Shown in pieces: positions 22,935 to 61,472 of a stretch of 64,000 nucleotides of DNA (the first letter of the stretch is position 1; each line of letters opens with the position of its first letter). Below the pieces are notes generated by a model, which was given only the letters and a program-made list of their open reading frames with translations, ran no database searches and was not told the DNA's origin. The stretch comes from Bacteroidia bacterium. Lineage in GTDB: Bacteria; Bacteroidota; Bacteroidia; Flavobacteriales; Flavobacteriaceae. The position numbers were made by a program, and so were the translations under genes. The stretch covers positions 1 through 64,000 of the forward strand of contig JAUIMB010000002.1 in NCBI GenBank assembly GCA_030432635.1, in the 5' to 3' direction.

Positions 22935-23010
22935 AATAGTATTACGATTTGATAATTAAAAGTCTAAGATTATCGATCACAAAAAAACAAAAAATTTATC
23001 CAATAATAGG

Positions 23011-23041
23011 TTTGGAATGTAAATTAAACCTTTTATATTTG
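23011..23041 (+). promoter_or_regulatory. Promoter of tRNA-Lys
   Basis: TTTG (23011-23014), a 19-base spacer and TATATTTG (23034-23041): a perfect Bacteroidota promoter 25 bases before the tRNA. Confidence 0.85.
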
Positions 23042-23066
23042 CACCCTCGTTTAGAGAAACTTTTTT

Positions 23067-23139
23067 GACTTGGTAGCTCAGTTGGTAGAGCATCTCCCTT
23101 TTAAGGAGAGGGTCCTGGGTTCGAGCCCCAGCCAAGTCA
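23067..23139 (+). tRNA. tRNA-Lys (anticodon UUU)
   Basis: Complete cloverleaf: acceptor GACTTGG/CCAAGTC, D-arm GCTC/GAGC, anticodon stem TCTCC/GGAGA with loop CTTTTAA (UUU), T-arm CTGGG-TTCGAGC-CCCAG and discriminator A. CCA is not encoded. Its 3' end is the likely integration target of the element that starts immediately downstream. Confidence 0.98.
23110..23139 (+). other. Inferred attL core in the tRNA-Lys 3' end
   Basis: A tyrosine recombinase gene begins about 150 bases past the tRNA and the DNA beyond is phage-like, so the 3' half of the tRNA is the expected core of the attachment site. The matching attR copy was not found before 64000, so the exact core and the element length cannot be set from this window. 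Confidence 0.6.
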
Positions 23140-23148
23140 CATTCCTTT

Positions 23149-23175
23149 AAACCCTGCGTAAATGCAGGGTTTTTT
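23149..23175 (+). terminator. Rho-independent terminator after tRNA-Lys
   Basis: 9-bp perfect stem AAACCCTGC/GCAGGGTTT with a 6-base loop, running into a T tract. Its 3' arm is part of a 28-bp sequence repeated in inverted orientation at 33704-33731. Confidence 0.9.
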
Positions 23176-23192
23176 AGTTTTCAGCATGTTGT
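23165..23192 (+). repeat. 28-bp inverted repeat, copy 1
   Basis: Bases 23165-23192 are the exact reverse complement of 33704-33731, 28 of 28 bases, with mismatches on both flanks. It runs from the 3' arm of the tRNA terminator through its T tract and 16 further bases ending CATGTTGT. The pair encloses the integrase, switch, retroelement and replication genes. Confidence 0.95.
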
Positions 23193-23206
23193 GCCTGAAA
23201 CCGTCC

Positions 23207-23280
23207 ATTTGCATGTTTTTGAAAAAAAACTATAAATTTGTACAAAAAACATGCAAATTTTACGTGTAAAATTCGTGTAA
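23207..23280 (+). promoter_or_regulatory. Integrase promoter with flanking repeats
   Basis: A promoter (TTTG 23208-23211, 21-base spacer, TAAATTTG 23233-23240) has its -7 box between the arms of a perfect 14-bp inverted repeat (ATTTGCATGTTTTT at 23207-23220, its complement at 23245-23258). Two direct copies of CGTGTAA follow at 23263 and 23274, just before the ATG at 23286. These are good candidates for integrase arm-type sites or for an operator that controls integrase. Confidence 0.7.
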
Positions 23281-23285
23281 TTCGA

Positions 23286-24512
23286 ATGAAGGCATCAATA
23301 AATCTTTTAACAAAACAGAGAGTGACATCAAAAGGTTATCCTATTGTTGTTAAATTGTTTTACAATTCCCAAAACAAGCCTTCAAAAAACATTGGGCACT
23401 CATTTGAGGAAGATTGGGATTTCCAAGAGAAAAAGACGAGAGTAACCCACCCTGAACATTTTGAGTTGCTTCCAAAAATACTAAACTACCATGCCAAAAT
23501 CATAAAAATAAACAACAACAATTATTCTTTTGATGACGCAAGATCCTTATTGTTTGGTCCTATTGTTCAAAAAAGTAACAACAACACAAAGTTTATTTCA
23601 TTCTTTGATGTGTTTATAAAAGAACTCAAAGCAAAGAACAAGTCGACTAGAATGCACGAGCAAGTCAGGAATATTTTGTACAATTATCTTGATGGAAAGG
23701 ATATTGAGATAAACGATGTTACTTATGAATGGCTTAATAAGTTTATGATAGATAAAATAAAACCAGGAACAAATGGATCTGGAGTTATGACCTATCTATC
23801 AAAAATGCGTACTGTTTTTAAAGAGGCTCAAAGGCGCGAATCATTGAAAGTTAAGTCCATAAACCCTTTTAGCGGATTGATAGAAACCGTTCCGCGTAAA
23901 AAAGATGTTATAGACATTGAACCCGAAGAACTAAAAAAACTATTTAACTATCAGCCAAAAAAGGGAACCTCTAAAAAAAATAACCTTGTTACTCAAAGAA
24001 ATATAGAGTTGCTGCTGTTGCAATTTTATTTAGGCGGAATAGACTATGCAGATTTAGCGCTCTTGGAATGGAGCAAAATGAAGAACAAAAGAATAAAGTT
24101 TAAAAGGTATAAAAATAGGAGCAAAAAATCGTATTATGTGACAGCAGATAATATGATAACACCTGAAGCATTGGCCATAATCGAAAAATATGGCACCAAG
24201 GACAGTGATCGTATTTTTTCCTTCATACCTAATCCGTTTCCAGAAGGCAATGATGATTATCCCAATAATAGGAGAACATTTAACAAGAGTATAGCCAAAG
24301 TTTGTGAAAACCTTAAAATACCCAAAATGTCATCAAAAAGCATGAGGTATGTTTTTAGAACTTTCGCTGGAAACCTATTCATTCACGACTTGATAGTAAT
24401 GAATTTACAAGCACATAAATCAGAATCGGTTTCACATCGATATCAAGGAAAGATCCCAAACGACATTAAGGACAAAGAGCATCAAAAAATTATAGACTTA
24501 TTGCTTTATTAG
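23286..24512 (+). CDS. Tyrosine recombinase (integrase)
   Basis: 408 residues: an N-terminal arm-binding domain (INLLTKQRVTSKGYPIVVKL), a SAM-like core-binding domain (about 110-210) and the catalytic domain. FYLGGIDYADLALLEW corresponds to box I, MRYVFRTFAGNLF to box II, NLQAHKSESVSHRYQGK to box III with the nucleophilic Tyr. The box I arginine appears to be Asp and the box II histidine Tyr; the Bacteroidota integrase IntDOT also lacks the box I Arg. ATG 23286 is preferred over the in-frame codon at 23238, which overlaps the promoter. Expected to insert the element into tRNA-Lys. Confidence 0.9.
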   Translation: MKASINLLTKQRVTSKGYPIVVKLFYNSQNKPSKNIGHSFEEDWDFQEKKTRVTHPEHFELLPKILNYHAKIIKINNNNYSFDDARSLLFGPIVQKSNNNTKFISFFDVFIKELKAKNKSTRMHEQVRNILYNYLDGKDIEINDVTYEWLNKFMIDKIKPGTNGSGVMTYLSKMRTVFKEAQRRESLKVKSINPFSGLIETVPRKKDVIDIEPEELKKLFNYQPKKGTSKKNNLVTQRNIELLLLQFYLGGIDYADLALLEWSKMKNKRIKFKRYKNRSKKSYYVTADNMITPEALAIIEKYGTKDSDRIFSFIPNPFPEGNDDYPNNRRTFNKSIAKVCENLKIPKMSSKSMRYVFRTFAGNLFIHDLIVMNLQAHKSESVSHRYQGKIPNDIKDKEHQKIIDLLLY

Positions 24513-24938
24513 GTTTAGGTTTGAGTTAAGCGACTGCTGAAGCAATTCAAAAACCGTAAGATCAAACATCATGCCCATTGTGACACCAAGGCCTTCGTAA
24601 TCCTTCATGAATTTATCAAACAAAGCTTGATTGTTGAAAGGCAAACATAAGTATTTGGTTTTATCTTTCTTTAGTTTTGTGATCGTAATTAGTATGGCCT
24701 TAACATTGTCGGTATCTATTTCCATAAAAGATTCATACGTAAATTTCCAATCGTTGTTGCCTCTTGAGAAAATAGTTTTAAGTTCGTACCCTTTTTTTAT
24801 TTCCCTTCCGTTTTCAATGTCTCGTTCATAACCATTAGTGAGGTAGTTATATTCAGTTTCGGTAGTTGTAATTGGTGCTAAGTTTTGAGCCGAAACTGTC
24901 ATGGAGCATAACAGTAGAATGTAAAATAATGTTTTCAT
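24498..24938 (-). CDS. Secreted protein of unknown function (cargo gene)
   Basis: 146 residues with a signal peptide (LFYILLLCSMTVSAQ) and a mature domain without a family I recognise. It is convergent with integrase, their ends overlapping by 15 bases, and is one of only three leftward genes in the element. Its position next to attL and separate orientation are typical of lysogenic-conversion cargo expressed from the provirus. Role not inferable. Confidence 0.75.
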   Translation of the reverse strand: MKTLFYILLLCSMTVSAQNLAPITTTETEYNYLTNGYERDIENGREIKKGYELKTIFSRGNNDWKFTYESFMEIDTDNVKAILITITKLKKDKTKYLCLPFNNQALFDKFMKDYEGLGVTMGMMFDLTVFELLQQSLNSNLNLIKQ

Positions 24939-25045
24939 GAAAGTTTGATTTTTAGAATGTTAAACCATCAAATATATAATTTATAAAATTAGTGTGAATG
25001 TCAATTACTCGAATTTTAAAAAATTTTCGTTTTAGAACTATTTTT

Positions 25046-25360
25046 TTTGGTTTGGAAAAAAAATACTATTTTTGTTTTCCTCCCTTATAATTATGCTCGG
25101 TATTAATGAGCTATAACACTTGTTACCTGCAAGCTGAAAAATGAATTACGAGCAAGATTTCGAAATAACAAATGATGAAAATGGATAATTTCAATCTACA
25201 GAGAGTTGTTGGAAACCATTCCTTAGAACTAAAAAGCATTGTATGGTAAAACAGTAGGTTTTCAATTACCTACAGCTCCATGATAAGTGTTGTTTTAATG
25301 ACGCTTATGAGAAGTTGTAGAGTAGTTGAATTTTTAGATAACAATTAAATAGTAATAAAA
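25046..25360 (+). promoter_or_regulatory. Promoter followed by a long structured leader
   Basis: Part of a 422-base gene-free stretch (24939-25360). TTTG (25046-25049) and TATTTTTG (25067-25074) make a promoter with a 17-base spacer. About 285 bases with no ORF follow, containing hairpins such as GTAGGT/ACCTAC and ATAAGTG/CGCTTAT, before a 34-residue ORF. It may be a small RNA or a long 5' leader. No known RNA family was recognised. Confidence 0.45.
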
Positions 25361-25465
25361 ATGAAGTTTATAGCAGGCTTAGTTTTGATTGTAGGTTACG
25401 CAGGACTAATTTTTTCTGTAATACAATTGATGATAGCTGTTAAAGAGATATTTAAAAAAGAGTAG
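25361..25465 (+). CDS. Small membrane peptide
   Basis: 34 residues (MKFIAGLVLIVGYAGLIFSV, then QLMIAVKEIFKKE): one membrane helix and a basic C-terminus. It follows the structured leader and precedes the methyltransferase fragment by 5 bases. Function unknown. Confidence 0.45.
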   Translation: MKFIAGLVLIVGYAGLIFSVIQLMIAVKEIFKKE

Positions 25466-25470
25466 TTGCA

Positions 25471-25578
25471 ATGAGTGGAAAAACCTCAAAAAATATTGCC
25501 TTTAACTATTTCGGTGGGAAGTTTTCTTGGTTAGAACATCTTTACGATTATTTTCCAGCTACTATGGAAAAACAATAA
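25471..25578 (+). pseudogene. N-terminal fragment resembling a Dam-type methyltransferase
   Basis: The 35-residue frame contains IAFNYFGGKFSWLEHLYDYF, which resembles the first motif (YxGGKxxlxxxIxxxFP) of D12-class adenine-N6 DNA methyltransferases. It stops at once; the following bases (reading GLSAKPKVGTY then stop) do not continue the domain. A remnant of a phage methyltransferase is the simplest view; a genuine micro-protein is possible. Confidence 0.45.
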
Positions 25579-25764
25579 GGGTTAAGTGCCAAACCCAAAG
25601 TTGGTACATATTAACATTGAAAAGTAAGTGCATTTTAATCTCTTACTATTCTTATACTAGACCGTAGTGATATTGTTAAATCATTGTTTATAAACTAATG
25701 CACACCCATAACCAATAAAGACTATAATTTCATAATTTAATGTGCAATATTAAAACCGTTAATT

Positions 25765-25935
25765 ATGAAAAAGTACTTACTATTATTGATGTTGATGTGT
25801 GTTATTTCAATCACAAGCTGCACAAGCGAAGAACTAGATGAAAACGAACCACAACTCACAAACAAATGCAACTCAGTCAACTCAGGACACGTCTGTGGAC
25901 CAGATTGTGACGATGACGACAATGGAGAGGGTTAA
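25765..25935 (+). CDS. Small lipoprotein
   Basis: 56 residues: signal YLLLLMLMCVISITSC with a lipobox Cys, then an acidic tail (CGPDCDDDDNGEG). Its stop overlaps the start of the next gene by 14 bases. A phage-encoded surface lipoprotein at this position may act in superinfection exclusion, but that is only inference. Confidence 0.6.
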   Translation: MKKYLLLLMLMCVISITSCTSEELDENEPQLTNKCNSVNSGHVCGPDCDDDDNGEG

Positions 25936-26635
25936 ACTTTATTTTCCGTATTTGGTATATGCTGTGGCGTTAGTCACGGCATTTTTTATTCACGAAAGCT
26001 TTGTCCAGGAGAATACCACAATCGATCAATTGAGAACCGCATGGAAAATAGAAAAAGCCGAACGCAGTCAACATCTTGAAGCAATCAAATCATTGGCTGC
26101 CGGAACAAAGGAGCATGAAATGTACATGGTTGCAAAAAACCGTACCGATACAGCCTTTGAAAAATTAAAGGAAGCCAAACGCCAAGATGAATTTTTAGGG
26201 TTTCCAAACTTTCAAATATTTATGGGTGAATTTGGTTGGGCATTCGGTTTGCTATTGATTGGTGTTTATATGCTTTTCAAAGATCTATATAACAAGGGTA
26301 AAGCATTGATAGGAGAACTTATAGTAGATACAACCATCATTTGCATTTCGTTGTTTTTTATAAAATGGACATTCAACAACCAACAAGACTTTTCTAGGTT
26401 CTGGTACATTTTCGTAAATGTTATGAGCGCCTTATTGGTAACGTTAGGCGCGATATTAATAGTTAAGAGAAAAGAGATTGAAAAAATAAAAATAAAGCAG
26501 TTATTCGCAATATTATGGAGAGGGTACTATGAAGATTTGGAAAAAAAGAAATTGATCGACCCTAATAAGCCACATGAGTTTAAACAGTTTAGGGTAGAAT
26601 TAACCGAAGAATTTGTTGAGCATGAGCAAAAATAA
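25922..26635 (+). CDS. Polytopic membrane protein
   Basis: About 237 residues with four predicted helices: near the N-terminus (LYFPYLVYAVALVTAFFI), in the middle (FGWAFGLLLIGVYMLF) and two toward the end (TTIICISLFFIKWTF, VMSALLVTLGAILIV), with a soluble loop rich in K and E after helix 1. In-frame starts also exist at 25838 and 25913; the ATG at 25922 best fits the overlap with the upstream lipoprotein gene. Unknown function. Confidence 0.65.
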   Translation: MERVKLYFPYLVYAVALVTAFFIHESFVQENTTIDQLRTAWKIEKAERSQHLEAIKSLAAGTKEHEMYMVAKNRTDTAFEKLKEAKRQDEFLGFPNFQIFMGEFGWAFGLLLIGVYMLFKDLYNKGKALIGELIVDTTIICISLFFIKWTFNNQQDFSRFWYIFVNVMSALLVTLGAILIVKRKEIEKIKIKQLFAILWRGYYEDLEKKKLIDPNKPHEFKQFRVELTEEFVEHEQK

Positions 26636-26804
26636 ACCAAACATCAAAAAAAGTGAATACTTGCCAGATAAGTATAAAGATACTTATGAGGAAGATTACC
26701 AAAGGTATGCCAGAAAAAAAACCGAAGAAAACATATCAAAAATAAAGGATATCACCAAAAACATGTCTACAGATGAAGTTTTAAGCAAACTACGGTTTGA
26801 TTAA
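26622..26804 (+). CDS. Small charged protein
   Basis: 60 residues, highly charged (SEYLPDKYKDTYEEDYQRYA), no membrane segment. Overlaps the previous gene by 14 bases and converges on the repressor gene. Function unknown. Confidence 0.5.
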   Translation: MSKNKPNIKKSEYLPDKYKDTYEEDYQRYARKKTEENISKIKDITKNMSTDEVLSKLRFD

Positions 26805-26809
26805 ATCTA

Positions 26810-27181
26810 CTAATTTTCCAATATATTTTTAACCCACTGTGAAGCTCTAAAAGTAAAAGTCAACTTCACGGCCTCGTTTTTCATCAATTCTTCAAAATGG
26901 TGCTTTAAGGCACTTTCTACAGTCTTAATTTCTTCAATGGTCAATGGATCAACTTCGTATGGCGATACAGGTTCGTTAATAGGATTTTCATCATTTAAGG
27001 CTTTGTTGCCAGCGTTTAGTAGTTTTTCCTCAAGTTCTCTTTTTTCAAGATCAGTTAACGATTCTCTTTTAACAGCAAGCCTTATGGTAGCCTCTTTCAT
27101 GCCAATTACATCGCCAATATCTTTCCATTTTAAGGAATTTAAAGCTTTAAATGAAACAAGTTTATTGTAAAAATCGTCCAT
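26810..27181 (-). CDS. Putative HTH repressor of the lysogeny switch
   Basis: 123 residues. The N-terminus (WKDIGDVIGMKEATIRLAVKR) has the spacing of a helix-turn-helix, and the remainder is acidic and helical. It is transcribed divergently from the Cro-like gene, with three repeated operators between them, the classical position of a phage maintenance repressor. No LexA-type peptidase domain is present, so induction would need another route. Confidence 0.65.
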   Translation of the reverse strand: MDDFYNKLVSFKALNSLKWKDIGDVIGMKEATIRLAVKRESLTDLEKRELEEKLLNAGNKALNDENPINEPVSPYEVDPLTIEEIKTVESALKHHFEELMKNEAVKLTFTFRASQWVKNILEN

Positions 27182-27208
27182 ATTTTACTTGATATACATA
27201 CAGTTATG

Positions 27209-27261
27209 GAAATATTTTTCCTTTTTTATTAGAAATATTTTTCTAAAACGAAATTTATTTC
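27209..27261. promoter_or_regulatory. Three operators, GAAA-N4-TTTC
   Basis: Two identical 12-mers, GAAATATTTTTC at 27209-27220 and 27232-27243, and a third with the same half-sites, GAAATTTATTTC at 27250-27261. They fill the gap between the divergent regulators and abut the rightward -7 box, like a tripartite phage operator. Confidence 0.75.
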
Positions 27262-27269
27262 TATGTTTG
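27262..27269 (+). promoter_or_regulatory. Rightward early promoter -7 box
   Basis: TATGTTTG matches TAnnTTTG exactly. Operator 3 ends at the adjacent base and operator 2 covers the expected -33 position, so a bound repressor would block it. Confidence 0.65.
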
Positions 27270-27349
27270 TTCAAAGAAATGGGAATATCATTGTCAAATA
27301 TAACAAAACAACAAGAAATCCCAACACAAAACAACAAGATATCAACATA

Positions 27350-27601
27350 ATGAGTAGTGAAATAGTTACATATCAAGCAAAAGGGAGTGAGGACCTTAAA
27401 AATAAACTACTGCCAAACGATGTTTCCGATATCGCAAAAGCATTTGGCCATTCATACACTAAAGTCTACAATTGGATTTCGGGAAGAAACTTTGGTGATG
27501 GTAAAGTTATTGAAGCTGCTAAAGAGTTGGCAAAACTCTACGTCGATGCAGATGTTTTAGAGAAAAGAAAGCAAATACTAGATAAGTACAAGTCTCAATG
27601 A
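27350..27601 (+). CDS. Cro-like DNA-binding protein
   Basis: 83 residues from the ATG at 27350; the longer in-frame start at 27263 falls inside the promoter. The segment LPNDVSDIAKAFGHSYTKVYNWISGR is a good helix-turn-helix, followed by a helical tail. First gene of the rightward early operon and divergent from the repressor gene. Role by position: early regulator antagonising the repressor. Confidence 0.65.
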   Translation: MSSEIVTYQAKGSEDLKNKLLPNDVSDIAKAFGHSYTKVYNWISGRNFGDGKVIEAAKELAKLYVDADVLEKRKQILDKYKSQ

Positions 27602-27918
27602 GTAGCGTAGCAACTATATCTGAAGAAACAATGGATATTGTGGTCCAATCACTGAAAAAAGCAGGATTGTTGATTACAACAAATGATGTTGTTGTATTTG
27701 GTCATAAAATAGCGAATAAGCGAAAATTGTTAATGAAGATGGAATCAGTCACAGCATTCCAGGTTGCAAAGTATAAGCTAATAAATACCCACCCATCGTT
27801 ACCAACAATAAAAAATTGGGTAAGCACCAAAAAATTTGGAGTAAATGAAACTTTCTACAATGAACACGGAAAATTAGAAATTACCACAATGGCCATTAGG
27901 AGGCTAAATGGAGAATAA
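27598..27918 (+). CDS. Probable small DNA-binding protein
   Basis: 106 residues starting with an ATGA overlap with the previous gene. FQVAKYKLINTHPSLPTIKNWVSTKKFGVNE has a winged-helix or excisionase-like look, but no family is recognised with confidence. Candidate excisionase or second regulator of the switch. Confidence 0.55.
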   Translation: MSSVATISEETMDIVVQSLKKAGLLITTNDVVVFGHKIANKRKLLMKMESVTAFQVAKYKLINTHPSLPTIKNWVSTKKFGVNETFYNEHGKLEITTMAIRRLNGE

Positions 27919-27922
27919 AAAA

Positions 27923-27944
27923 GGAGCGTTTAACACAACGCTCC
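27923..27944 (+). terminator. Hairpin, possible terminator or attenuator
   Basis: Perfect 8-bp stem GGAGCGTT/AACGCTCC with a 6-base loop directly after the regulator gene, preceded by an A tract but with no T run. It may attenuate rightward transcription or terminate leftward transcription. Confidence 0.5.
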
Positions 27945-27945
27945 C

Positions 27946-27964
27946 ATAACTAAAAATTACCACA
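27946..27964 (+). repeat. 19-bp leader repeat, copy 1
   Basis: ATAACTAAAAATTACCACA, identical to 31648-31666. No gene starts directly after this copy. The following 80 bases (27965-28043) hold weak inverted repeats only. Confidence 0.7.
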
Positions 27965-28043
27965 CTTCGCTAAAAGTGAAGTAACAATAACCACTTACCA
28001 CAGCAGCTATTGGCTGTAAAGGTAAATAAATTATCTAAACAGC

Positions 28044-28301
28044 ATGACTGCACAATCATCTAAAAGAGGTCGAAAGCCACATAAGTCTTATGAGCAAAGC
28101 GACTACTCCAAATTCCATTTCGCATTCTTAGGATATAGATTTTTAGATAAAGCAACCCAAAGGGTAAAAACTAAGCTTCAGGTGTTCTTGATCAACAAAA
28201 AAGAGGCACTGTGTATGGCAGAGTTAAGAAGACCTACAGACAAGTATGATTTGGTAGATTCTCCAGGTTGGGAAAACGGAACTGAAAAATTAATACAATA
28301 A
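28044..28301 (+). CDS. Hypothetical protein
   Basis: 85 residues: a basic start (TAQSSKRGRKPHKSYEQSDY), then FHFAFLGYRFLDKATQRVKTKLQVFLINKKEAL. No family recognised. Its stop is 5 bases from the next start. Confidence 0.5.
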   Translation: MTAQSSKRGRKPHKSYEQSDYSKFHFAFLGYRFLDKATQRVKTKLQVFLINKKEALCMAELRRPTDKYDLVDSPGWENGTEKLIQ

Positions 28302-28306
28302 CAGAT

Positions 28307-28699
28307 ATGAATTACTCAAACGACCAAAAAAGAGAAATTGAGCACTTAGCCTCAAACACTCCAGGATTAAAAGACTATGGAACCAAAGGAAGAGAAAACG
28401 ATGGTTCGCCAAAAGAAGGTTTTTTTACCTTAAAGGATAACCGAACAATCAAGTTAATTGATCTCACAGACACGAGCACAAATCCAGACGACACCATACA
28501 AGATGGTATAAACATGGAAGAAGCTGCCAAATCTTTTCCAGAACTTCAAAGCTATGTTGGTATTGGTTGGGATAAACAACTCCAAAAGGCCAAAAAAGGA
28601 TTCTACAAAGTTAAGGCTGATGGTCGTGTGATAAGCATAAAACAGCTACGTGAAGCCATGACCAAAAAAGCTTCCGAAAAAAATATAAATACTGATTAA
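28307..28699 (+). CDS. Hypothetical protein
   Basis: 130 residues, soluble, with repeated blocks around GFFTLKDNRTIKLIDL and GFYKVKADGRVISIKQL that look like two copies of a short beta-beta-alpha unit (KxGFxxxKxxxRxIxxxxL). Family not recognised. Last gene before the structured noncoding stretch. Confidence 0.55.
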   Translation: MNYSNDQKREIEHLASNTPGLKDYGTKGRENDGSPKEGFFTLKDNRTIKLIDLTDTSTNPDDTIQDGINMEEAAKSFPELQSYVGIGWDKQLQKAKKGFYKVKADGRVISIKQLREAMTKKASEKNINTD

Positions 28700-28732
28700 T
28701 AACTCTATTCCCTAATTATTGATTAGTAGTTG

Positions 28733-28842
28733 TCCACATCGTCAGTGTGCGAAATGCACACTGCCCTTGTGGAAATTAAAACACCAACAGACGTAAGTTC
28801 GTCTAATCCCAGCAGCTCTACAGTTTTATATGCTGCTGGGAT
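28733..28842. ncRNA. Structured noncoding stretch with three hairpins
   Basis: Three consecutive inverted repeats in gene-free DNA. The first (28733-28773) is a 6-bp outer stem TCCACA/TGTGGA, a 4x4 internal loop and an 8-bp inner stem CAGTGTGC/GCACACTG with a 5-base loop. The second (28789-28804) is AGACG/CGTCT. The third (28806-28842) is an 11-bp perfect stem ATCCCAGCAGC/GCTGCTGGGAT with a 15-base loop. It could be a small RNA, an RNA tied to the retroelement downstream, or a replication origin. Confidence 0.5.
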
Positions 28843-28856
28843 ATTAAAAAATCACT

Positions 28857-29129
28857 ATGCCAGCAATTATCTTTAACGTTATTCAGCAACAAGATGTTAG
28901 TATCAACTTTTCTGACAAGATGATGTCAGATTTTCCGGTGCATGAACATTACATGATCGAGGTTAGAAAATTTGTTGTCATTTATAAATTCAAACCTACC
29001 AGGCGTACCGAAGCAAACATGGATCTATTTGTCAAGGCATTAGAACTATACTTCAAGAGGAAGTACAAGGCCTATTCGGTGACTTATGGAGGACTACAAG
29101 AGCAACTTCCTAAACCCAAGACACCATGA
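28857..29129 (+). CDS. Hypothetical protein
   Basis: 90 residues with a small alpha/beta appearance (IIFNVIQQQDVSINFSDKM, MIEVRKFVVIYKFKP). Overlaps the next start by 4 bases (ATGA). Family not recognised. Confidence 0.5.
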   Translation: MPAIIFNVIQQQDVSINFSDKMMSDFPVHEHYMIEVRKFVVIYKFKPTRRTEANMDLFVKALELYFKRKYKAYSVTYGGLQEQLPKPKTP

Positions 29130-29284
29130 AAAATTACAAATACGCATTATTAGGCATTATAGCTGTTTTAGCAGCATATCTGCTTTATGGTTTAGTGCCA
29201 TTTCTCATAATCATACTACTTGGTTCAATAGGCATATCATGCGTATTTCATGCTATTGAAAATGAGTTAAAGGAAGATGTATGA
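29126..29284 (+). CDS. Small membrane protein
   Basis: 52 residues with two hydrophobic segments (YALLGIIAVLAAYLLYGLV, FLIIILLGSIGISCVF) and an acidic tail. ATGA overlap with the previous gene; 24 bases before the first DGR target. Unknown role. Confidence 0.5.
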   Translation: MKNYKYALLGIIAVLAAYLLYGLVPFLIIILLGSIGISCVFHAIENELKEDV

Positions 29285-29308
29285 TATTACTTAACAAAAA
29301 ACTATAAA

Positions 29309-29776
29309 ATGGAAACATTAGAAATCAAAAAAAATGATGCCATAAAAGCACATTCAGCAGCTAACAAAAAAGGCAAAGTTCTTCTTGAAAATCTATTAGG
29401 AAAGAAAATATTTTTTAAAGATGTAAAAGAACGTATCAAGACAATTGAAGACGTATTAAAAGACAATGGCACAAGCCAAACGAAAGTTGACAACATGTTC
29501 AAATATTCACCCGAACATTTAAAGCACCAATACATTGCCGAATTGCTATGTAAATCACTAAATGAAGGTTGGGAACCAAATTGGGATAATAGCAACGAAT
29601 ATAAATATTATCCATGGTTCAAAATGTCTCCTTCGGGCTTTCGTTTCAGCGACTACGATTACTGGCATTCGATTTCGAATGTCGGCTCTCGCCTTTGCTT
29701 AAAATCAAGAGAGCTTGCCATCTATGCAGGTGAGCAGTTTACCGAACTATATGAAAAATTCATGATAACCAATTAA
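29309..29776 (+). CDS. DGR variable protein 1
   Basis: 155 residues. The N-terminal half is helical and lysine-rich. The variable segment (residues about 106-130) reads MSPSGFRFSDYDYWHSISNV and is followed by a constant helix (KSRELAIYAGEQFTELYEKF). The variable repeat differs from the template only at template adenines, so this protein is a retromutagenesis target. It shares WDN...SPSGFR...NVGSRLC...E...QF..LY with the next gene. The role is unproven; DGR targets usually bind ligands or receptors. Confidence 0.85.
   Translation: METLEIKKNDAIKAHSAANKKGKVLLENLLGKKIFFKDVKERIKTIEDVLKDNGTSQTKVDNMFKYSPEHLKHQYIAELLCKSLNEGWEPNWDNSNEYKYYPWFKMSPSGFRFSDYDYWHSISNVGSRLCLKSRELAIYAGEQFTELYEKFMITN
29625..29699 (+). 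repeat. DGR variable repeat VR1
   Basis: 75 bases aligning without gaps to the template at 30201-30275. Ten differences, all at template adenines (A to G four times, A to T five, A to C one). No difference at any of the 56 non-A template positions. Confidence 0.93.
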
Positions 29777-29785
29777 ATAGAAATA

Positions 29786-30172
29786 ATGGAAAAATATACA
29801 GACATTAAAACATTTGATGACGCATGCCAAATTGAAGGCTACGATCCTAAAGTAATCATACCAGACTTTTCTGCCTATCCTGAGAAGCACCGTAAAGCTG
29901 CTATTGCAGAAGCCAAACTGTTTATAGTTGTCGAAGCTGTGAACAAAGTTGCAAATGGTGGAAAAGAATACATTCCAGATTGGGATAATGGAAAATGGGA
30001 TAAATACGAACCATTGTTTTACATGTCTCCTTCGGGCTTTCGTTACTACGACTGCGATCGCTGGAATGCGTTTTCGAATGTCGGCTCTCGCCTTTGCTCG
30101 ATTTCAAGTGAGGTTTGTGAGTATATCGCAACACAGTTCATTGATCTATACAAGGACATCTACGTAAAGTAG
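29786..30172 (+). CDS. DGR variable protein 2
   Basis: 128 residues, 9 bases after variable protein 1 and paralogous to it over the C-terminal half. The variable segment (about residues 80-104) reads MSPSGFRYYDCDRWNAFSNV, then a constant helix (SSEVCEYIATQFIDLYKDIY). As in protein 1 the variable region is internal, with about 25 constant residues after it, unlike the usual C-terminal C-type-lectin arrangement. Confidence 0.85.
   Translation: MEKYTDIKTFDDACQIEGYDPKVIIPDFSAYPEKHRKAAIAEAKLFIVVEAVNKVANGGKEYIPDWDNGKWDKYEPLFYMSPSGFRYYDCDRWNAFSNVGSRLCSISSEVCEYIATQFIDLYKDIYVK
30024..30098 (+). repeat. DGR variable repeat VR2
   Basis: 75 bases aligning without gaps to the template. Eleven differences, all at template adenines. 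Four changes (template offsets 11, 60, 67, 71) are identical to those in VR1; the other seven are VR2-specific or at shared hot sites. Confidence 0.93.
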
Positions 30173-30200
30173 TATAAAACAGGTGGTGCAATATATGAGT

Positions 30201-30275
30201 TGTCTCCTTCAGGCTTTCGTTACAACGACTACGATAACTGGAATACGAATTCGAATGTCAGCTCTCACCTATGCT
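30201..30275 (+). repeat. DGR template repeat TR
   Basis: 75 noncoding bases between the second target and the reverse transcriptase, containing 19 adenines, many in AAC/AAT-type codons of the target frame (Y-N-D-Y-D-N-W-N-T-N). It is the source of VR1 and VR2 by adenine-directed mutagenic retrohoming. Its last part (offsets 60-75), differing from both VRs in the same way, is the likely IMH* segment. Confidence 0.93.
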
Positions 30276-30376
30276 AAATAAAATATGTATTGCAGACCTT
30301 GCTAACAAAGCAAAAAACAACGATAAAAATAAAGGCGTTGGTAACGAAAGTGAAAACGACTTTTATTAAGCAAAGT

Positions 30377-31333
30377 ATGAAACGAATAGGAAATTTATAT
30401 CAAAAAATAATAAGCATCGATAATCTAATTGAAGCCGACAAAAAAGCTCAAAAAGGTAAGTCGAAACAATATGGCGTAATTCTTCATAATAAGAATAGGG
30501 AGTTCAATATTTTGGAACTACATGATAACCTGAAAAACAAGACCTTCAAAACCTCAAAATATGATGTATTTAAGGTGTACGAACCCAAGGAACGTGAAGT
30601 TTATCGACTACCATATTATCCTGACCGAATTTTGCATCATGCTATTATGAATGTGCTTGAGCCAATATTCGTTTCAGTATATACGTCAGATTCTTATAGT
30701 TGCATAAAGAACAAAGGAATACATGCTGCACTTGAAAATGTAAAAAGAGCCCTAAAGAATGTGTCAGGCACTAGATACTGTTTGAAATTGGATATCACAA
30801 AATTTTATCCAAGCATCGACCATGATATTTTAAAGCAACTGTTGAGGAGAAAATTCAAGGATAATGATTTGCTATGGCTATTAGATGAAATAATCGAAAG
30901 TGCACCTGGTTTACCCATAGGTAACTATTTAAGCCAATATTTAGCAAATTTTTACTTGACCTATTTTGATCATTGGATTAAGGAAAATAGGGGAATAAGA
31001 TATTATTACCGATACGCCGATGATATTGTCGTTCTAGCTTCTAATAAGTCCTATCTTCATAAAACTCTTGGAGAAATAAGCTATTACCTTTCTTCAGAAT
31101 TGAAACTCAATGTAAAGCCAAATTATCAAGTATTTCCAGTGCAATCAAGAGGAATTGATTTTTTGGGTTATAGAATATTTCATACGCATGTTTTACTTCG
31201 TAAGCGTATCAAGAAGAACTTTGCTAAAATGCTTACTAACAACCCAAATGACGCATCAATAGCTTCATATTTAGGATGGGCCAAGCATTGTAATTCTCAT
31301 AATTTAATAAAAACGTTGCTACCACATGTTTAA
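30377..31333 (+). CDS. DGR reverse transcriptase
   Basis: 318 residues copying the template RNA with adenine infidelity. Catalytic motifs: LDITKFYPSIDHD (Asp139), the DGR hallmark IGNYLSQ at 181-187 in place of the QGxxxSP of other group II-like RTs, and YADD at 213-216, followed by GIDFLGYRIF. The start MKRIGNLYQKIISIDNL is the normal family N-terminus; the in-frame start at 30290 adds 29 unrelated residues. The next gene overlaps by 8 bases. No Avd-like accessory gene is recognised. Confidence 0.95.
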   Translation: MKRIGNLYQKIISIDNLIEADKKAQKGKSKQYGVILHNKNREFNILELHDNLKNKTFKTSKYDVFKVYEPKEREVYRLPYYPDRILHHAIMNVLEPIFVSVYTSDSYSCIKNKGIHAALENVKRALKNVSGTRYCLKLDITKFYPSIDHDILKQLLRRKFKDNDLLWLLDEIIESAPGLPIGNYLSQYLANFYLTYFDHWIKENRGIRYYYRYADDIVVLASNKSYLHKTLGEISYYLSSELKLNVKPNYQVFPVQSRGIDFLGYRIFHTHVLLRKRIKKNFAKMLTNNPNDASIASYLGWAKHCNSHNLIKTLLPHV

Positions 31334-31619
31334 ATTTAGTGAACTCAATATAGCGCCAATAAAACCTCATTTTACAGGAGATAAAATACAGTTAAAACGC
31401 CTTGTTGGTAAAGAGATTATCGTATTAAAATACACGATTGGACCGTCGTCTAAAACAGATGGAGATTGTCTAACACTTCAAATCTTTTATGATAACGAAA
31501 AAATGGTGGTGTTTACTGGAGCTAAATATTTATCAAGACAAATAGTTTCGATTCCTGAAGACAAATTTCCATTCACAACAACAATAAGTAACACTAATCA
31601 ATATTACGAATTTACTTAA
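31326..31619 (+). CDS. Small protein coupled to the DGR reverse transcriptase
   Basis: 97 residues, beta-rich (IIVLKYTIGPSSKTDGDCLT, MVVFTGAKYLSRQIVSIPED), overlapping the reverse transcriptase by 8 bases, which implies translational coupling. It does not look like the helical accessory protein Avd. Might be a retroelement accessory factor or an ssDNA-binding-like protein; unproven. Confidence 0.6.
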   Translation: MFKFSELNIAPIKPHFTGDKIQLKRLVGKEIIVLKYTIGPSSKTDGDCLTLQIFYDNEKMVVFTGAKYLSRQIVSIPEDKFPFTTTISNTNQYYEFT

Positions 31620-31647
31620 GGCAAGAGACAAGGTAAATGAACTTTTA

Positions 31648-31666
31648 ATAACTAAAAATTACCACA
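31648..31666 (+). repeat. 19-bp leader repeat, copy 2
   Basis: Identical to 27946-27964 and directly followed by the ATG at 31667, so it probably serves as a start-site leader. Confidence 0.7.
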
Positions 31667-31927
31667 ATGAACAATTCATCACAACCAGAACTAGAACACC
31701 GAATAATCGAGTTTGCTGGAAACACAACAACATTAAATGGTAGCATTACCAAGGACGACAAACTAATGTATGTAAAAGGCCATGTTCCAAAAAACAACAC
31801 TGTAGATATGCTAACTGTTTTAGGGTATTGTTCCGATCAAGGATACGATGCAAAACGCATAAATCATGACATAAGCACAGGTTATGTAGAAATGAAGCTG
31901 GTACAAAAACAACACACCCAACAATAA
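31667..31927 (+). CDS. Hypothetical protein
   Basis: 86 residues, soluble, with LEHRIIEFAGNTTTLNGSIT and YVEMKLVQKQHTQQ. No recognised family. Located between the retroelement and the replication gene. Confidence 0.5.
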   Translation: MNNSSQPELEHRIIEFAGNTTTLNGSITKDDKLMYVKGHVPKNNTVDMLTVLGYCSDQGYDAKRINHDISTGYVEMKLVQKQHTQQ

Positions 31928-31970
31928 CCAACAATAGATTGTTACCCTTCAAGACTTAAACATTACTAAA

Positions 31971-33704
31971 ATGAACCCAAGTGCAGTAAATACAAGTGTT
32001 TCAATACATAATGGCAACTTATGTTTTTTCAACAACAACACCAATAATAGTGTTGGTTCATCGTACACAAAGGCAGATTTGCTACCTAAAGTCATCGGAA
32101 AACAAAACCTATACTCAAAGCAAAGGAAACTAATTTTAAAAAACTACCAGAGGTTTGTGCATAATTACAATGACCAAATCAAAATATTGAACCAGGAAGT
32201 GAAAAACTATAACCAACAATGTCAAAAGTGTATTGTTGAAAACGAAATGAAAGACCAATCCAAAGCATTAAACCAAAAGTTAAGGTCAAAACTAGGTAAA
32301 GTCTCAATCATCGAATACAACAAGGCTGTTGAGATAGAAAATACTTTAAGCTCCAACCCTGTTTATTTGAAAAAGAAACACACTTCTATTAAGAAAATCA
32401 CCGAAACGACATTTTCATTGATCATTTTTAAATATGCGATGCAAATGCACTCCAAAAACAAAATTTTAGAAAGTGTTCCTGCCACAACAGTACGAAGCCT
32501 TCAAAAAGTACAAGTAAACCCGTATAATCTAGCCAATACCGTTATAAATGAGGTTCTAACGCTACCATACACAAAGCGAACCATCCAAAACCATGTAAAT
32601 AGACTTATTGATGCAGGTGTTTTGGTAGATCATGAATTTAAAGGCTACTATTTTAACAAAGACCCTAAAAAGAGAGCAGGAAAACCAAGTGAATATCATG
32701 TTAATAGTGAAATAATGGTGGTTTTTGACGACAAAACCAAAAAAACTTTAAGTATTGAAAATCAGCTTTTTAAATATGGAAGTGAGAAAAATTTTCATTA
32801 TGATAGTATAGTTACTAGAACAATTATAAATAATAATAATATAAATGAGATTGTTAACAAATCTCATAGTAACGAGAAAGAATTTGTACAACAAATTCTT
32901 CCAAGCTTTTTAAAATCGCCTAAAGTCGATAACAAGAACATTTACAAGAACACCAACTCCGTAAGTTCATCGAAAAAATCACCGAGGCAGCTCGAAAATT
33001 TTGATCAATCCAGCGAAATTTTAAGGGAATCTATTGATACAAAGTATGATTTATGCTATGACTTGGACCACAACAAGTACGATGACCATCGGTTTTGTAT
33101 GCAACGAGAGTTTGAACGCGAATATTTGTACGGAAATATGTCTAAAAGTGAGTTTTTAGAGTTGCTCCAGCATGAGTTTATGAAACTAGCTGCTCCATTG
33201 TACAAGAATAAGACTGTTTATTCCGGAAGTTGGTCAAAAGCATACAACGACATTAAGCGTCTATTTCTTAACAACAATGGATCCATACCAGGAAAGGCCA
33301 ACCTATTAAACACTTTTAATGCGTTGCATTGGCGCATCACTTATGCCAAAAGGTGCCAAAATAGTAAAAGAAAATCATGGAGAGCACTGTTTCCAACTCA
33401 ATATTTTGACCCTACACGAACTACCAACAAATCGGGTGGATTTGCACATACACTTGAATTTTGGAAGAAAGAACAAGAGAGACGACAAAATGAACATCTT
33501 CTAAAATCTAAAAGACGACAAGAAGCTGCTATTCGTAACCGAAGGTATAAGGCTATAGACGATTTCCATAAAAAAGTAAAGCACCTTACCCAAGGTAAAA
33601 TAACTATTGGCGAGTTACAGGATTTTATTTACAACAACAATGAATTGCCAGACAAATACAAGTTTAATATCACTCATTTTATAAGCCAGGCTTATATGTG
33701 TTGA
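31971..33704 (+). CDS. Probable replication initiator (winged helix)
   Basis: 577 residues. A coiled-coil-like N-terminal part (ILKNYQRFVHNYNDQIKILN) is followed by a winged-helix region (TLPYTKRTIQNHVNRLIDAG, then DHEFKGYYFNKDPKKRAGKP), an Asn/Ser-rich linker and a basic C-terminal domain (WRITYAKRCQNSKRKSWRAL). The layout resembles helix-turn-helix initiator proteins of Bacteroidota plasmids and phages. It is the largest early gene and the only replication candidate in the window. Its stop codon touches the second 28-bp inverted repeat. Confidence 0.55.
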   Translation: MNPSAVNTSVSIHNGNLCFFNNNTNNSVGSSYTKADLLPKVIGKQNLYSKQRKLILKNYQRFVHNYNDQIKILNQEVKNYNQQCQKCIVENEMKDQSKALNQKLRSKLGKVSIIEYNKAVEIENTLSSNPVYLKKKHTSIKKITETTFSLIIFKYAMQMHSKNKILESVPATTVRSLQKVQVNPYNLANTVINEVLTLPYTKRTIQNHVNRLIDAGVLVDHEFKGYYFNKDPKKRAGKPSEYHVNSEIMVVFDDKTKKTLSIENQLFKYGSEKNFHYDSIVTRTIINNNNINEIVNKSHSNEKEFVQQILPSFLKSPKVDNKNIYKNTNSVSSSKKSPRQLENFDQSSEILRESIDTKYDLCYDLDHNKYDDHRFCMQREFEREYLYGNMSKSEFLELLQHEFMKLAAPLYKNKTVYSGSWSKAYNDIKRLFLNNNGSIPGKANLLNTFNALHWRITYAKRCQNSKRKSWRALFPTQYFDPTRTTNKSGGFAHTLEFWKKEQERRQNEHLLKSKRRQEAAIRNRRYKAIDDFHKKVKHLTQGKITIGELQDFIYNNNELPDKYKFNITHFISQAYMC

Positions 33705-33731
33705 CAACATGCTGAAAACTAAAAAACCCTG
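33704..33731 (-). repeat. 28-bp inverted repeat, copy 2
   Basis: Exact reverse complement of 23165-23192, starting at the last base of the stop codon of the probable initiator gene. There is no complementary arm nearby, so this copy is not itself a terminator hairpin. Confidence 0.95.
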
Positions 33732-33786
33732 TATAACCTATGTATAGAAAAAGAATCATAATACGCAAACTGTTAAACCAACAACA

Positions 33787-34227
33787 ATGAAATCTTTAAT
33801 CAAAAACAATTTTGTACCAATAATCTTTGCTGTAGTTTCAATAATTATTTATTGGGCAATCTACTATCATTTTGAAATAGAAGGTATTAATACTGTGCTA
33901 TTAGCTATTTCAATACCAGCAGTTATAATCGCAGTAATCAATATCCCATTTATTAGCAAAAGATTGATTGCTATTCAGGATAAGTACCATGAAAGAAACC
34001 TAACTGAAAAATTTATTGTTGATCAAGCCAAAAAACGCGCTAAAAAAGAAGGTAAAAAATGGTTCGCTTTTGGACCAAAAAAGCAGCATACGGTGTGGGC
34101 ATCAACACATAAACTCGCTAACAATATTTGGGTAAATAAAGTCGAGCATTTAACAAAAAAATTCCCTAAAAAAGAATTTTATTATATCGATTCTAAAACC
34201 AACAATCTTAAAAATGGGAAGCAATAA
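33787..34227 (+). CDS. Membrane protein with basic cytoplasmic domain
   Basis: 146 residues with two N-terminal helices (FVPIIFAVVSIIIYWAIYY, VLLAISIPAVIIAVI) and a basic soluble part (DQAKKRAKKEGKKWFAFGPK). First gene of the small-gene block. Unknown function. Confidence 0.6.
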   Translation: MKSLIKNNFVPIIFAVVSIIIYWAIYYHFEIEGINTVLLAISIPAVIIAVINIPFISKRLIAIQDKYHERNLTEKFIVDQAKKRAKKEGKKWFAFGPKKQHTVWASTHKLANNIWVNKVEHLTKKFPKKEFYYIDSKTNNLKNGKQ

Positions 34228-39364: not shown

Positions 39365-40249
39365 ATGAATCTTCTAAAAGAAATAGATGTAGATAAAACA
39401 ATAGTTGTTGCTTTTTCAGGTGGTGAAAGTTCCGCATACGCTCTAATGCTAGTGTTAGAAAAATTCAAACAAACACATAACATTATTGTATGCTTTTGCA
39501 ACACAGGAGAAGAAGATGAAGAAACATTCATTTTTACTAAAAGGATAGCTGAATATTTAAAAATCAATGTTGTTTGGTTAGAGTACAGAAGCGAAAGAGG
39601 TTTTGAAATTGTTGATTTTGATACCGCTTACAGGATTACTGATTTTGAAAAAAACAATGAATACCCAAACCATCCTTTCCATCTATGGGTTAAGGATTAT
39701 GGGTTGCCACAATACCCAAAACGAACTTGCACAAGAGAAATGAAAGAGCGCACCATATCGAGATATTTGTCGTCAATTGGTGTTATGCCTAGAATGTGTG
39801 TAAGGGTTGTAGGTATTAGATTTGATGAAATTGCAAAAAGAACACCTAACGAAAAACAATACTATCCGTTAATAATTAATGGAGTTACAAAGTCTTTTCT
39901 GAATAGGTTTTTTGAATACGAAATGCCTTTTAGATTGAATTTGAAATCATATATGGGTAATTGTGGTGCTTGTGTATTAAAAGGATTGAGAAACCTATGT
40001 ACGGTATATAGAAAGCGTCCTGAGAAATTTGAGTTTTTCAAATTCTTAAACGACAAATACGGTGGTGGTAATCATAGTTTTTACATAAAATATAACACGA
40101 TAGATTCAATTATTGAAATGGCTAAAGACAAAAAAATTAAAAATGCAAAAGATAATAGGTTTGATTTTCAATACCAACAAGATTTATTTTTTGACCCAAT
40201 ATTAGATACTGAGGGTGCTTGTGGTGGAACTTGCGAGGCTTTTGCATAA
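39365..40249 (+). CDS. PP-loop (PAPS reductase-like) protein with Cys cluster
   Basis: 294 residues of the adenine-nucleotide alpha-hydrolase superfamily: VVAFSGGESSAYALML (SGGESS at 18-23), CFCNTGEEDEET, YPKRTCTREMK. Additional cysteines in GNCGACVLKGLRNLC and EGACGGTCEAF could hold an iron-sulfur cluster, as in DndC and phage PAPS-reductase-like proteins. Such enzymes act in sulfur transfer or nucleotide modification. It shares the block with a DGQHR protein, but no DndA, DndD or DndE is present. Role not proven. Confidence 0.8.
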   Translation: MNLLKEIDVDKTIVVAFSGGESSAYALMLVLEKFKQTHNIIVCFCNTGEEDEETFIFTKRIAEYLKINVVWLEYRSERGFEIVDFDTAYRITDFEKNNEYPNHPFHLWVKDYGLPQYPKRTCTREMKERTISRYLSSIGVMPRMCVRVVGIRFDEIAKRTPNEKQYYPLIINGVTKSFLNRFFEYEMPFRLNLKSYMGNCGACVLKGLRNLCTVYRKRPEKFEFFKFLNDKYGGGNHSFYIKYNTIDSIIEMAKDKKIKNAKDNRFDFQYQQDLFFDPILDTEGACGGTCEAFA

Positions 40250-43859: not shown

Positions 43860-43889
43860 AAATAAGCTTGCATTTACGCAGGCTTATTT
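43860..43889 (+). terminator. Hairpin before the late operon
   Basis: A 12-bp stem (AAATAAGCTTGC with GCAGGCTTATTT, one G-U) and a 6-base loop, followed by TTGTTG. It lies 26 bases before the first late gene and could be a terminator that early transcripts must pass, or an antitermination target. Confidence 0.6.
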
Positions 43890-43915
43890 TGTTGATGTTC
43901 ATTGAAATTTTAGGT

Positions 43916-45445
43916 ATGACAACACCACAGGAAATTAATCAAACGTTATACAGGCCACTTTTAAGTGGAACGAAGTATGACAGTTTAATTAAAAAAAGCA
44001 ACTGTGATCCTGTAAATCTCGGAAAAGGCAATACCAAGGTAACGCTTAATGAGATGCAAAAATGGACATACAAACATGCTCACGAGGCCAAAGGAATTGC
44101 CAAGGAAATACAAAAAAACTCAAAATCGCTAAAACAATTAGTAGACAATGTTCACTTTTTTGTGTTCAACCATTTCCAATATGCAATTGACGAAAGTGAC
44201 CAACTATTGCGCTCACCAAGTTGTGCATGGCAAAACGAAAGGCAATCTGGCATAGACTGTAAATCCTACAGTATCATTGCTTCGAGCATATTGTTATGTT
44301 TAGGAGTTAGGCACTTTTTTAGACGCATCCAACAATCCGAACTACCAGGAGTTTACACCCACGTTTACATTGTCGTACCAAAAGACCAAAAAACCAAAAG
44401 ACTAAAATCAACAGCAAGGTTCAATCAAGATTATTACATCATCGATGGAACAATTGCCCACAACAACGAAGTAGCATCAATAAAAAAAGATGACCTATTA
44501 ATGATAGCCGAACCAAAATTAAATATTGTCGGACTAGCATCACCTCACGTGGGATGCAAATGTGGCGGTCAATGCCACTCATGTTCGAGTAACAACCATT
44601 TGCCTCATGCAGCAATGGGTATTTCATTTGATGACTTTTCAAACTTATTTGGTGATGGTTGGTCCTTTAATTGCTTTGGAGGTTCATACGATACGTCAGA
44701 CCTCGAAGCTTTTGTAGACCTAACATCAAGAGGTTTTTTGCTTAATGTAGCAATATACAATGAGTTTTTAGAAAGATATTTGACATCTGGTTACCCAGGG
44801 CAAATACTTAATGTCCAAATAGGGATTTATAGATTGATGTCATCAGCACATGCGCTTTATGATAAAGCCTACCAAACATCAGGTCATAGTTGGAGCAGCA
44901 ATTGTTCTGCCAGAGCTACTCAAGGATTTTTGGACGTTGCGACATTTTATAAAAACGTTATCGATGAAGCATTTGTGCCATACGTACAAAAGTACTTTGA
45001 ATTTGATTCCCAAAACTTTCGATTAAGTAACGATGCTTATGTATTCCCTTCTAGGGAAAACGATAAAGGCATGGACCAAAATCAATTCACAAGAGACTTT
45101 GACAGTGTTAGGTTTGTGAACCTTAGACTAAAAGAAGGCGTTTCACAAGTTCCAAAATTTGTAATAAACACCTACGCAATAGATAACATTGGATCTTCCG
45201 GATTTAATGTTAACAGCTTTCTTAACCTGTTAACAGATACGGTTGTCAATACATTTTTTGAAGGTGAAGATCCAGGAAATAATAACCAAAACAACAACCA
45301 AAACGGCAATAACAACAATGGTATCAATGATAATATTGAAGCCATACCAAGCACATCGGCTGCCTCATCTTCAGGTTTGGCAATCGGCATAGCAGTATTG
45401 GCCATTGGTGGATTTGTAGTTTCTAAAATGAAAAAGTCAAGTTAA
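43916..45445 (+). CDS. Transglutaminase-fold protein with C-terminal membrane anchor
   Basis: 509 residues. A transglutaminase-like cysteine peptidase core has a triad visible as Cys115 (GIDCKSYSIIASS), His149 (VYTHVYIVVP) and Asp177 (YYIIDGT). A Cys-rich stretch follows (CKCGGQCHSC), then a long domain, an Asn-rich linker (NNNQNNNQNGNNNNG in outline) and a final helix (SGLAIGIAVLAIGGFVV) with a KMKKSS tail. ATG 43916 is chosen; the TTG at 43868 lies inside the hairpin. First late gene; probably a virion or assembly protein that crosslinks or processes partners at a membrane. Confidence 0.75.
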   Translation: MTTPQEINQTLYRPLLSGTKYDSLIKKSNCDPVNLGKGNTKVTLNEMQKWTYKHAHEAKGIAKEIQKNSKSLKQLVDNVHFFVFNHFQYAIDESDQLLRSPSCAWQNERQSGIDCKSYSIIASSILLCLGVRHFFRRIQQSELPGVYTHVYIVVPKDQKTKRLKSTARFNQDYYIIDGTIAHNNEVASIKKDDLLMIAEPKLNIVGLASPHVGCKCGGQCHSCSSNNHLPHAAMGISFDDFSNLFGDGWSFNCFGGSYDTSDLEAFVDLTSRGFLLNVAIYNEFLERYLTSGYPGQILNVQIGIYRLMSSAHALYDKAYQTSGHSWSSNCSARATQGFLDVATFYKNVIDEAFVPYVQKYFEFDSQNFRLSNDAYVFPSRENDKGMDQNQFTRDFDSVRFVNLRLKEGVSQVPKFVINTYAIDNIGSSGFNVNSFLNLLTDTVVNTFFEGEDPGNNNQNNNQNGNNNNGINDNIEAIPSTSAASSSGLAIGIAVLAIGGFVVSKMKKSS

Positions 45446-45446
45446 T

Positions 45447-46747: not shown

Positions 46748-46798
46748 GATCAATCAATACCATTATAAAAAGTAAAAAAAATCAAAAAACGAACAAAA

Positions 46799-47392: not shown

Positions 47393-47414
47393 AACAAACA
47401 GTTAATTAACATAT

Positions 47415-47451
47415 AAAAAGCCTTTGCCTTTAGAGGTTAAGGCTTTTTTTT
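47415..47451 (+). terminator. Terminator after the capsid candidate
   Basis: Stem AAAAGCCTT/AAGGCTTTT (9 bp), 14-base loop, T run. It lies inside the late gene block, so it probably lowers downstream expression relative to the gene before it. Confidence 0.85.
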
Positions 47452-47464
47452 AAATCATAATTCA

Positions 47465-48150: not shown

Positions 48151-48170
48151 ATATAAAATCCCTTCAAACC

Positions 48171-49064: not shown

Positions 49065-49065
49065 C

Positions 49066-49269: not shown

Positions 49270-49270
49270 A

Positions 49271-50050: not shown

Positions 50051-50061
50051 AGGATAAAACC

Positions 50062-53961: not shown

Positions 53962-53963
53962 CC

Positions 53964-57948: not shown

Positions 57949-57952
57949 AGCC

Positions 57953-59644: not shown

Positions 59645-59698
59645 AAAAACTTTGCTATTAATACTGATATTGAGGGATTGAGGTGTTAAAAAAAAGAG

Positions 59699-60341: not shown

Positions 60342-60392
60342 CGTTATGAAAACGGTTTATGAATCTCAAATAATACCTAGTATTAGAATAAA

Positions 60393-61465: not shown

Positions 61466-61472
61466 TAGGATC

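Follow-up and report, generated by a model that had tools for sequence, protein, structure and literature searches.

Does the reverse transcriptase (RT) locus in this Flavobacteriaceae contig hold an intact diversity-generating retroelement (DGR), and what might its two small target proteins be for? Within the window, by which we mean the whole 64,000-nt stretch that was analysed, the locus is best explained as a phage-borne, Avd-less DGR that looks intact, a reading to which we would assign a probability of a little under 0.9.

Realignment of the 75-bp template (TR, 30201-30275, + strand) confirmed that it pairs gap-free with two variable repeats, VR1 (29625-29699, +) and VR2 (30024-30098, +). 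There are 10 mismatches to VR1 and 11 to VR2, all at the 19 template adenines and none at the 56 other positions. The chance of such adenine-only placement is 1.1e-7 for VR1 and 1.5e-8 for VR2 (hypergeometric; the two values are not independent), and with these probabilities an origin of the repeats by chance or duplication was rejected. The alignment places IMH* in the 3' portion of TR (from about 30260) and IMH in the 3' portions of VR1 (from about 29684) and VR2 (from about 30083). No further TR/VR copies were found in the 64,000-nt window, and beyond TR, VR1 and VR2 the 3.5-Mb genome contains only short, chance-level matches.

The RT gene (30377..31333, +, 318 aa from ATG) carries both motifs that had been reported for it, IGNYLSQ and YADD, and matches phrog_1423 (E 1.9e-123). 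The ATG at 30377 is the likelier start, since the alignment of relatives begins there. By its sequence the enzyme belongs to the DGR clade, with a motif of the form [IVL]GxxxSQ; YADD occurs together with IGNYLSQ in 144 of 155 RT ORFs, and a PADLOC run matched the protein to many general RT models. Among the named phages listed, the closest RT by identity (57.0%) is that of the crAss-like phage cr52_1, in which, unlike here, the VR lies in a 1.2-kb tail gene. The initial annotation had described a complete adenine-mutagenic DGR with two tandem targets; this is supported, because the locus combines a DGR-type RT with an intergenic template and with A-specific VRs in two tandem genes, in an architecture common to relatives.

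The element resides in a prophage of ~41.7 kb at tRNA-Lys (23067-23140). A tyrosine-type integrase gene of the prophage (23238..24512, +) follows the tRNA, whose end region recurs as an 86% copy at contig positions 64685-64766, just past the window. Lysins of the GH108 type and of the chitinase/endolysin type are encoded, together with a pectate-lyase-like protein. No terminase, portal or capsid protein was recognised among the 20-odd late proteins scanned, and in the host genome a TerL model found a match only on another contig. The late block (43868-62448) combines the lysins and the pectate-lyase-like protein with several long fibre-like proteins, and possibly represents an unusual phage type. 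A phosphoadenosine phosphosulfate reductase-like gene occupies 39365-40249; its counterpart in LoVEphage lies ~1 kb after the family target of that phage.

Relatives of the locus are numerous. A target-based scan of viral contigs yielded 12 loci, 8 of them with A-specific TR/VR pairs, and an RT-based viral scan yielded 276 relatives, the best 80 of which were retained; among these best 80 of 276, family target ORFs were present in 77 and TR/VR pairs in 76. Two family ORFs precede the RT in 64 of the 71 viral loci with sufficient upstream sequence (three in 5, one in 2), and the first is the longer in 59 of the 64 two-ORF loci. The GTDB scan added 65 loci, from Bacteroidetes groups (57), Ignavibacteria (3), Clostridia (4) and Desulfatirhabdium (1); as found here, the branch is mostly in Bacteroidota. 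TR/VR pairs were detected in 57 of these 65 loci and family target matches in 42, three of which (L143, L145 and L151) are long targets that match through the VR only. Where the family ORFs were assessable (57 GTDB loci), two were found in 30, three in 7, one in 2 and none in 18. Loci without small targets mostly have one target of about 430-480 aa, in which the match to the small-target profile covers only ~26 VR residues (seen in 9 of 13 long targets, with E from 2.1e-6 to 1.1e-4). With the match restricted to those residues, one variable module seems to occupy two different scaffolds. Two loci differ in layout: at L006 (2274-4462) the RT lies between two target genes whose VRs both match one template, and at L129 (157-594) an extra family target with its own VR (17/17 at A) is found ~3.3 kb from the template.

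According to the initial annotation, differences at non-A positions should emerge on alignment of related strains if the reading was wrong. The locus came through this comparison largely, if not perfectly: template adenines hold 2012 of the 2035 TR/VR mismatches in 147 VRs from 74 loci (rows L024 and L026 dropped), a rate that is biased because the pair finder penalises non-A mismatches. In the same loci and VRs, core template adenines read A 834, G 630, T 450 and C 287 times.

A small companion gene (31326..31619, +, 97 aa) overlaps the end of the RT gene, and its product is a proposed accessory protein. It may instead be an adjacent phage gene with an unrelated function that travels with the RT through linkage, as its location on the same strand and in the same operon as the RT, its lack of a known domain and its absence from 8 of 151 assessable RT loci would allow. 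A clean profile for the ~98-aa protein detected it in the other 143, downstream of the RT in 133, upstream in 9 and in one ORF with the RT in 1; in 55 loci, the commonest arrangement, its start precedes the end of the last RT codon by 10 bases. The 9 upstream copies, which tell against linkage, sit between a long target and TR, and avd in BPP-1 has the same position, between the target gene and TR. The distribution across genomes also argues against linkage, the companion always lying near a close RT relative: in same-family genomes companion and RT occur in the same 2 of 199, and in phylum genomes the companion occurs in 4 of 345, and these are precisely the genomes whose RT reaches 49% identity (two of them have the companion ~0.3 kb after the RT), while 30 phylum genomes with more distant RTs only have no companion. 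It adjoins RTs of archaeal viruses too; a direct search of the phages collection detected it in two viruses only, ANMV-1 and vir525, in both beside the RT, and the profile found it at the LoVEphage RT. We therefore regard simple linkage as doubtful and think it likely that the companion assists the RT where Avd is missing. The gene's association with the RT is shown for the branch rather than for the window locus taken alone.

The model of the companion is confident (pLDDT 91.5) and beta-rich, unlike Avd, which is helical. Its likeness to OB-type ssDNA-binding proteins is weak and not significant. In Pfam searches, HRDC (PF00570) and MSL (PF01624), both named as DGR accessory proteins (PMC10053308), matched 0 of 89 companion sequences. 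None of 23 viral records, which include fragments, contained the Avd-like family PF05635, and its two hits in G000 are both on other contigs. At L130 (3782-5242), RT and companion form one 487-aa ORF, either a natural fusion or a MAG frameshift.

The two targets are small. Target gene 1 (29309..29776, +, 155 aa) belongs to phrog_11581, which has no functional annotation, and to no named family; target gene 2 (29786..30172, +, 128 aa) is a shorter paralogue. A search for relatives of the targets gave nothing convincing in Pfam, NCBIfam or PDB sequences, matches in BFVD at E<=0.001 were unnamed phage proteins only, and no PADLOC model matched the targets or the companion. In the model of target 1, confident helices lie within residues 8-85 and at 134-152, and the VR residues 111-123 are disordered (pLDDT below 50).

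These residues being unmodelled, the targets could be minimal C-type lectins misfolded by structure prediction. The VR module common to the long targets, which we infer to be lectins, points the same way; moreover, Roux et al. tie all annotated VR domains to C-type lectin folds and expect uncharacterised ones to be lectin variants (PMC8144416), and Benler et al. label both Quimbyvirus targets as lectin-containing (PMC8008677). However, on either side of the VR the model confidently predicts helices and contains no strand as long as 3 residues, and a fold search of the PDB with the model returned no match at E<=0.001. A hidden lectin fold is on these grounds rather unlikely; as modelled, target 1 is not a recognisable C-type lectin and is probably a non-lectin protein.

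We lean towards the two targets being cytoplasmic hypervariable binders rather than virion adhesins. Adhesins that alter host attachment would be in keeping with the usual role of phage DGR targets, and two further points agree with them: the LoVEphage TR also serves a tail gene, and 9 of 13 long targets have the VR module in common with the small ones. Against this, the proteins are small and a membrane-like 19-mer was found in 0 of 114 family targets. Their genes lie 14 kb ahead of those for the lysins and fibre-like proteins and precede replication-type genes too, and the family is kept across phages with other structural genes: it occurs on records with and without detected TerL (present in 10 of 23 viral records, and not in this prophage), and the 525-aa protein at 43868 has a match in 0 of 12 records. 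Since the early gene position and the occurrence on such records both speak against a place in the virion, we consider the adhesin reading unlikely. For the cytoplasmic binders, a role in phage-host or phage-phage conflict is perhaps somewhat short of an even chance. At L150 a single ORF bears both target types and both VRs, which suggests that the two targets act jointly.

LoVEphage offers a close parallel. One TR there fits both a tail gene (11/11 at A) and a homologue of the target family (10/10 at A), and a companion homologue overlaps the RT pieces; unlike the present locus, it has a single family member, 28% identical and ~16 kb from the RT, which is annotated in pieces. In the account of Benler et al., the second Quimbyvirus target is apparently non-structural and near defence-related genes, and a conflict role was inferred for it, yet it is called lectin-containing (PMC8008677). 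One Quimbyvirus target is probably a relative of the small-target family, and we infer that LoVEphage is such a Quimbyvirus-type phage; the surroundings of its gene fit the description by Benler et al.

Other known systems share parts of the arrangement. The BPP-1 DGR (mtd, avd, TR, brt) is alike in its A-specific TR-to-VR transfer, in the IMH/IMH* 3' ends and in a structured spacer RNA after TR, as described for it (PMC3240598, PMC12875486). It differs from the locus studied here, where no Avd was found, there are two small targets and a companion gene, and the target model is not lectin-like. A GC-rich hairpin of the BPP-1 type after the VR was also sought, and no perfect 6-10-bp stem with a 3-5-nt loop was present from -12 to +70 of the VR1 and VR2 ends. 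The crAss-like LMMB DGR is likewise described as Avd-less, in the order target, TR, RT (PMC7290462), but the companion was missing from the two crAss-like loci read, L024 and L025. In ANMV-1 a companion homologue begins 3 bases after the RT gene; a figure legend in the ANMV-1 report names an Avd ORF, which may or may not be that homologue, and the target there, adtA, differs in being modelled as an Mtd-like lectin protein near tail fibres (PMC4372165). Tentaclin-phage DGRs have one TR and two targets as well, though with lectin domains in both (PMC10743442).

The template itself appears to lie within a structured RNA (30182..30379, +), as covariation among relatives suggests. A covarying spacer is common to 72 TR-to-RT sequences (9 pairs, 8 with double changes), and with the 5' flank included (68 non-redundant sequences) a long-range stem, P1, encloses the template. 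Its arms map to 30182-30194 and 30288-30298, followed on the same strand by P3 (30299-30313) and P4 (30331-30345 with 30352-30363). Standard pairs make up 98.8% of P1, whereas slid versions give 29.0-50.5% and 500 shuffles reach 86.5% at best; the values are 94.7% for P4 (at most 73.5% in shuffles) and 98.2% for P3 (at most 58.5% slid), the structure having an advantage over slid versions because it was derived from the sequences it is scored on. P2 (90.7%) only equals the best shuffle. Across 73 loci, own arms gave a mean of -12.2 kcal/mol and exchanged arms -9.0, with the own arm within the best 5% in just 12. Taken alone, the window RNA folds no better than shuffles (z -1.11), and in the region 23000-34000 the tRNA alone passed the Rfam cut-off, the template RNA being without a match. 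The covarying RNA closed by a long-range stem is shown for the branch, not for this locus alone.

The initial annotation counted 14 of the 19 template adenines as differing in at least one copy. The count holds, but 4 of the 14 are not truly varying sites. TR offsets 10, 59, 66 and 70 change identically in both VRs (to G, G, G and T), and relatives almost always agree at the corresponding sites; these positions are fixed, template-only bases rather than products of random mutagenesis. This leaves 10 truly variable sites in the window, within offsets 21-48. Two of the window marks are synonymous (Ser TCA/TCG and Leu CTA/CTT), so selection on protein alone does not account for the marks.

Three of the four sit in IMH*, and at the window locus IMH (CGCCTTTGC) differs from IMH* (CACCTATGC). 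Of the 121 VRs in which the pattern was placed (26 others were unreadable), 110 have the former sequence as their IMH. Across all 121, the template departs from IMH at 2 bases in 77 cases, at 3 in 42 and at 4 in 2. Template IMH* forms include CACCTATGC (65), CACCTATGT (19), CACCTGAGC (15) and others, a variety which indicates that the marks are mostly, not exclusively, adenines. Nanoarchaeal DGRs described by Paul et al. have IMH TGGGGT and IMH* TGGAAT (PMC4372165). The 3' CAG template adenine reads G in 137 of 139 VR readings and the 5' CAG template adenines in 203 of 205.

Two candidate causes of these marks were set aside. Deterministic A-to-G editing is unlikely, as a core CAG adenine of L073 reads A, T and T in three VRs. 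RNA pairing has some appeal for the 3' CAG mark, since in 54 of 64 loci A forms the better pair there and in 7 G does, with 3 equal, but own partners are only weakly distinguished from exchanged ones (p 0.07) and the helix stays within the range of shuffles. RNA pairing gives no explanation of the 5' marks. The 5' template-only A at 30211 (TR offset 10), which in the window falls at a synonymous Ser codon, and its equivalents in relatives are explained neither by pairing nor by protein selection.

New here are the target family, its paired arrangement, the template RNA and the companion gene, the last two at the level of the branch. Two targets alone are not unusual, two-target cassettes being reported as ~13% of DGRs (PMC10743442), and nor is the absence of Avd, reported for about a quarter (PMC7290462). 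Among the published papers searched, none was found that announces the target pair, the companion gene or the template RNA. The branch is a compact system in which to study a candidate stand-in for Avd, the fold of the template RNA and a pair of targets that are probably intracellular and probably not lectins. An essential companion would explain one group of DGRs that have no Avd, and targets that bind inside the cell would mean that phages apply retro-mutagenesis beyond attachment. Because lectin folds appeared wherever Roux et al. could annotate VR domains, confirmation of a non-lectin target would be of note. More tentatively, and with odds clearly against the whole at present, this may be a distinct branch of retroelements in which the template is sealed in a covarying RNA, a beta-rich companion does the job of Avd, and a portable ~26-residue variable module is displayed by a pair of cytoplasmic proteins that are inherited together and have a new helical scaffold, giving retro-mutated intracellular recognition directed against host defences or rival phages.

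In the proposed mechanism, a transcript of about 30182-30379 would fold so that the long-range stem closes off the template, and the RT would copy TR with errors at adenines. The cDNA core would then replace the matching core of VR1 or VR2, each independently, and the flanking marks (IMH in the VR, IMH* in TR) would stay fixed, keeping the VR as recipient and TR as donor. The IMH/IMH* roles and the cDNA steps are borrowed from work on BPP-1 and apply here by analogy.

Recent change was sought among 46 locus pairs that share a 50-base template stretch. Nine pairs are identical over their whole aligned length, VRs included, and are possibly one element sampled twice. The near-identical prophage contigs L035 and L037 have 15 mismatches in 8945 bp. 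A VR1 segment of 31 bases, 13 of them template A, holds 11 of these, each at such an A; VR2 and the flank marks are unchanged, and the other 4 mismatches are at the edge (locus positions 15-30). The remaining pairs are 10-25% diverged or give no useful alignment. The L035/L037 pattern is what a single retrohoming event into VR1 would leave, and such a VR1-only, A-specific change indicates that the branch has been active. That the window copy is a decayed DGR, once active and no longer diversifying, would suit the nine pairs of relatives without VR change but is quite improbable given this recent VR1-only change and given that the RT, both target frames, TR, IMH/IMH* and the companion are all open or intact, in agreement with the intact appearance first noted for the element. 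A second sign of activity in the branch comes from the template of L055 (2730-2813), which has 10 adenines (L073, 23). Of 81 positions compared with the L094 template 8 differ, each of them an adenine in L094, as if the L055 template had been overwritten by a mutagenised copy.
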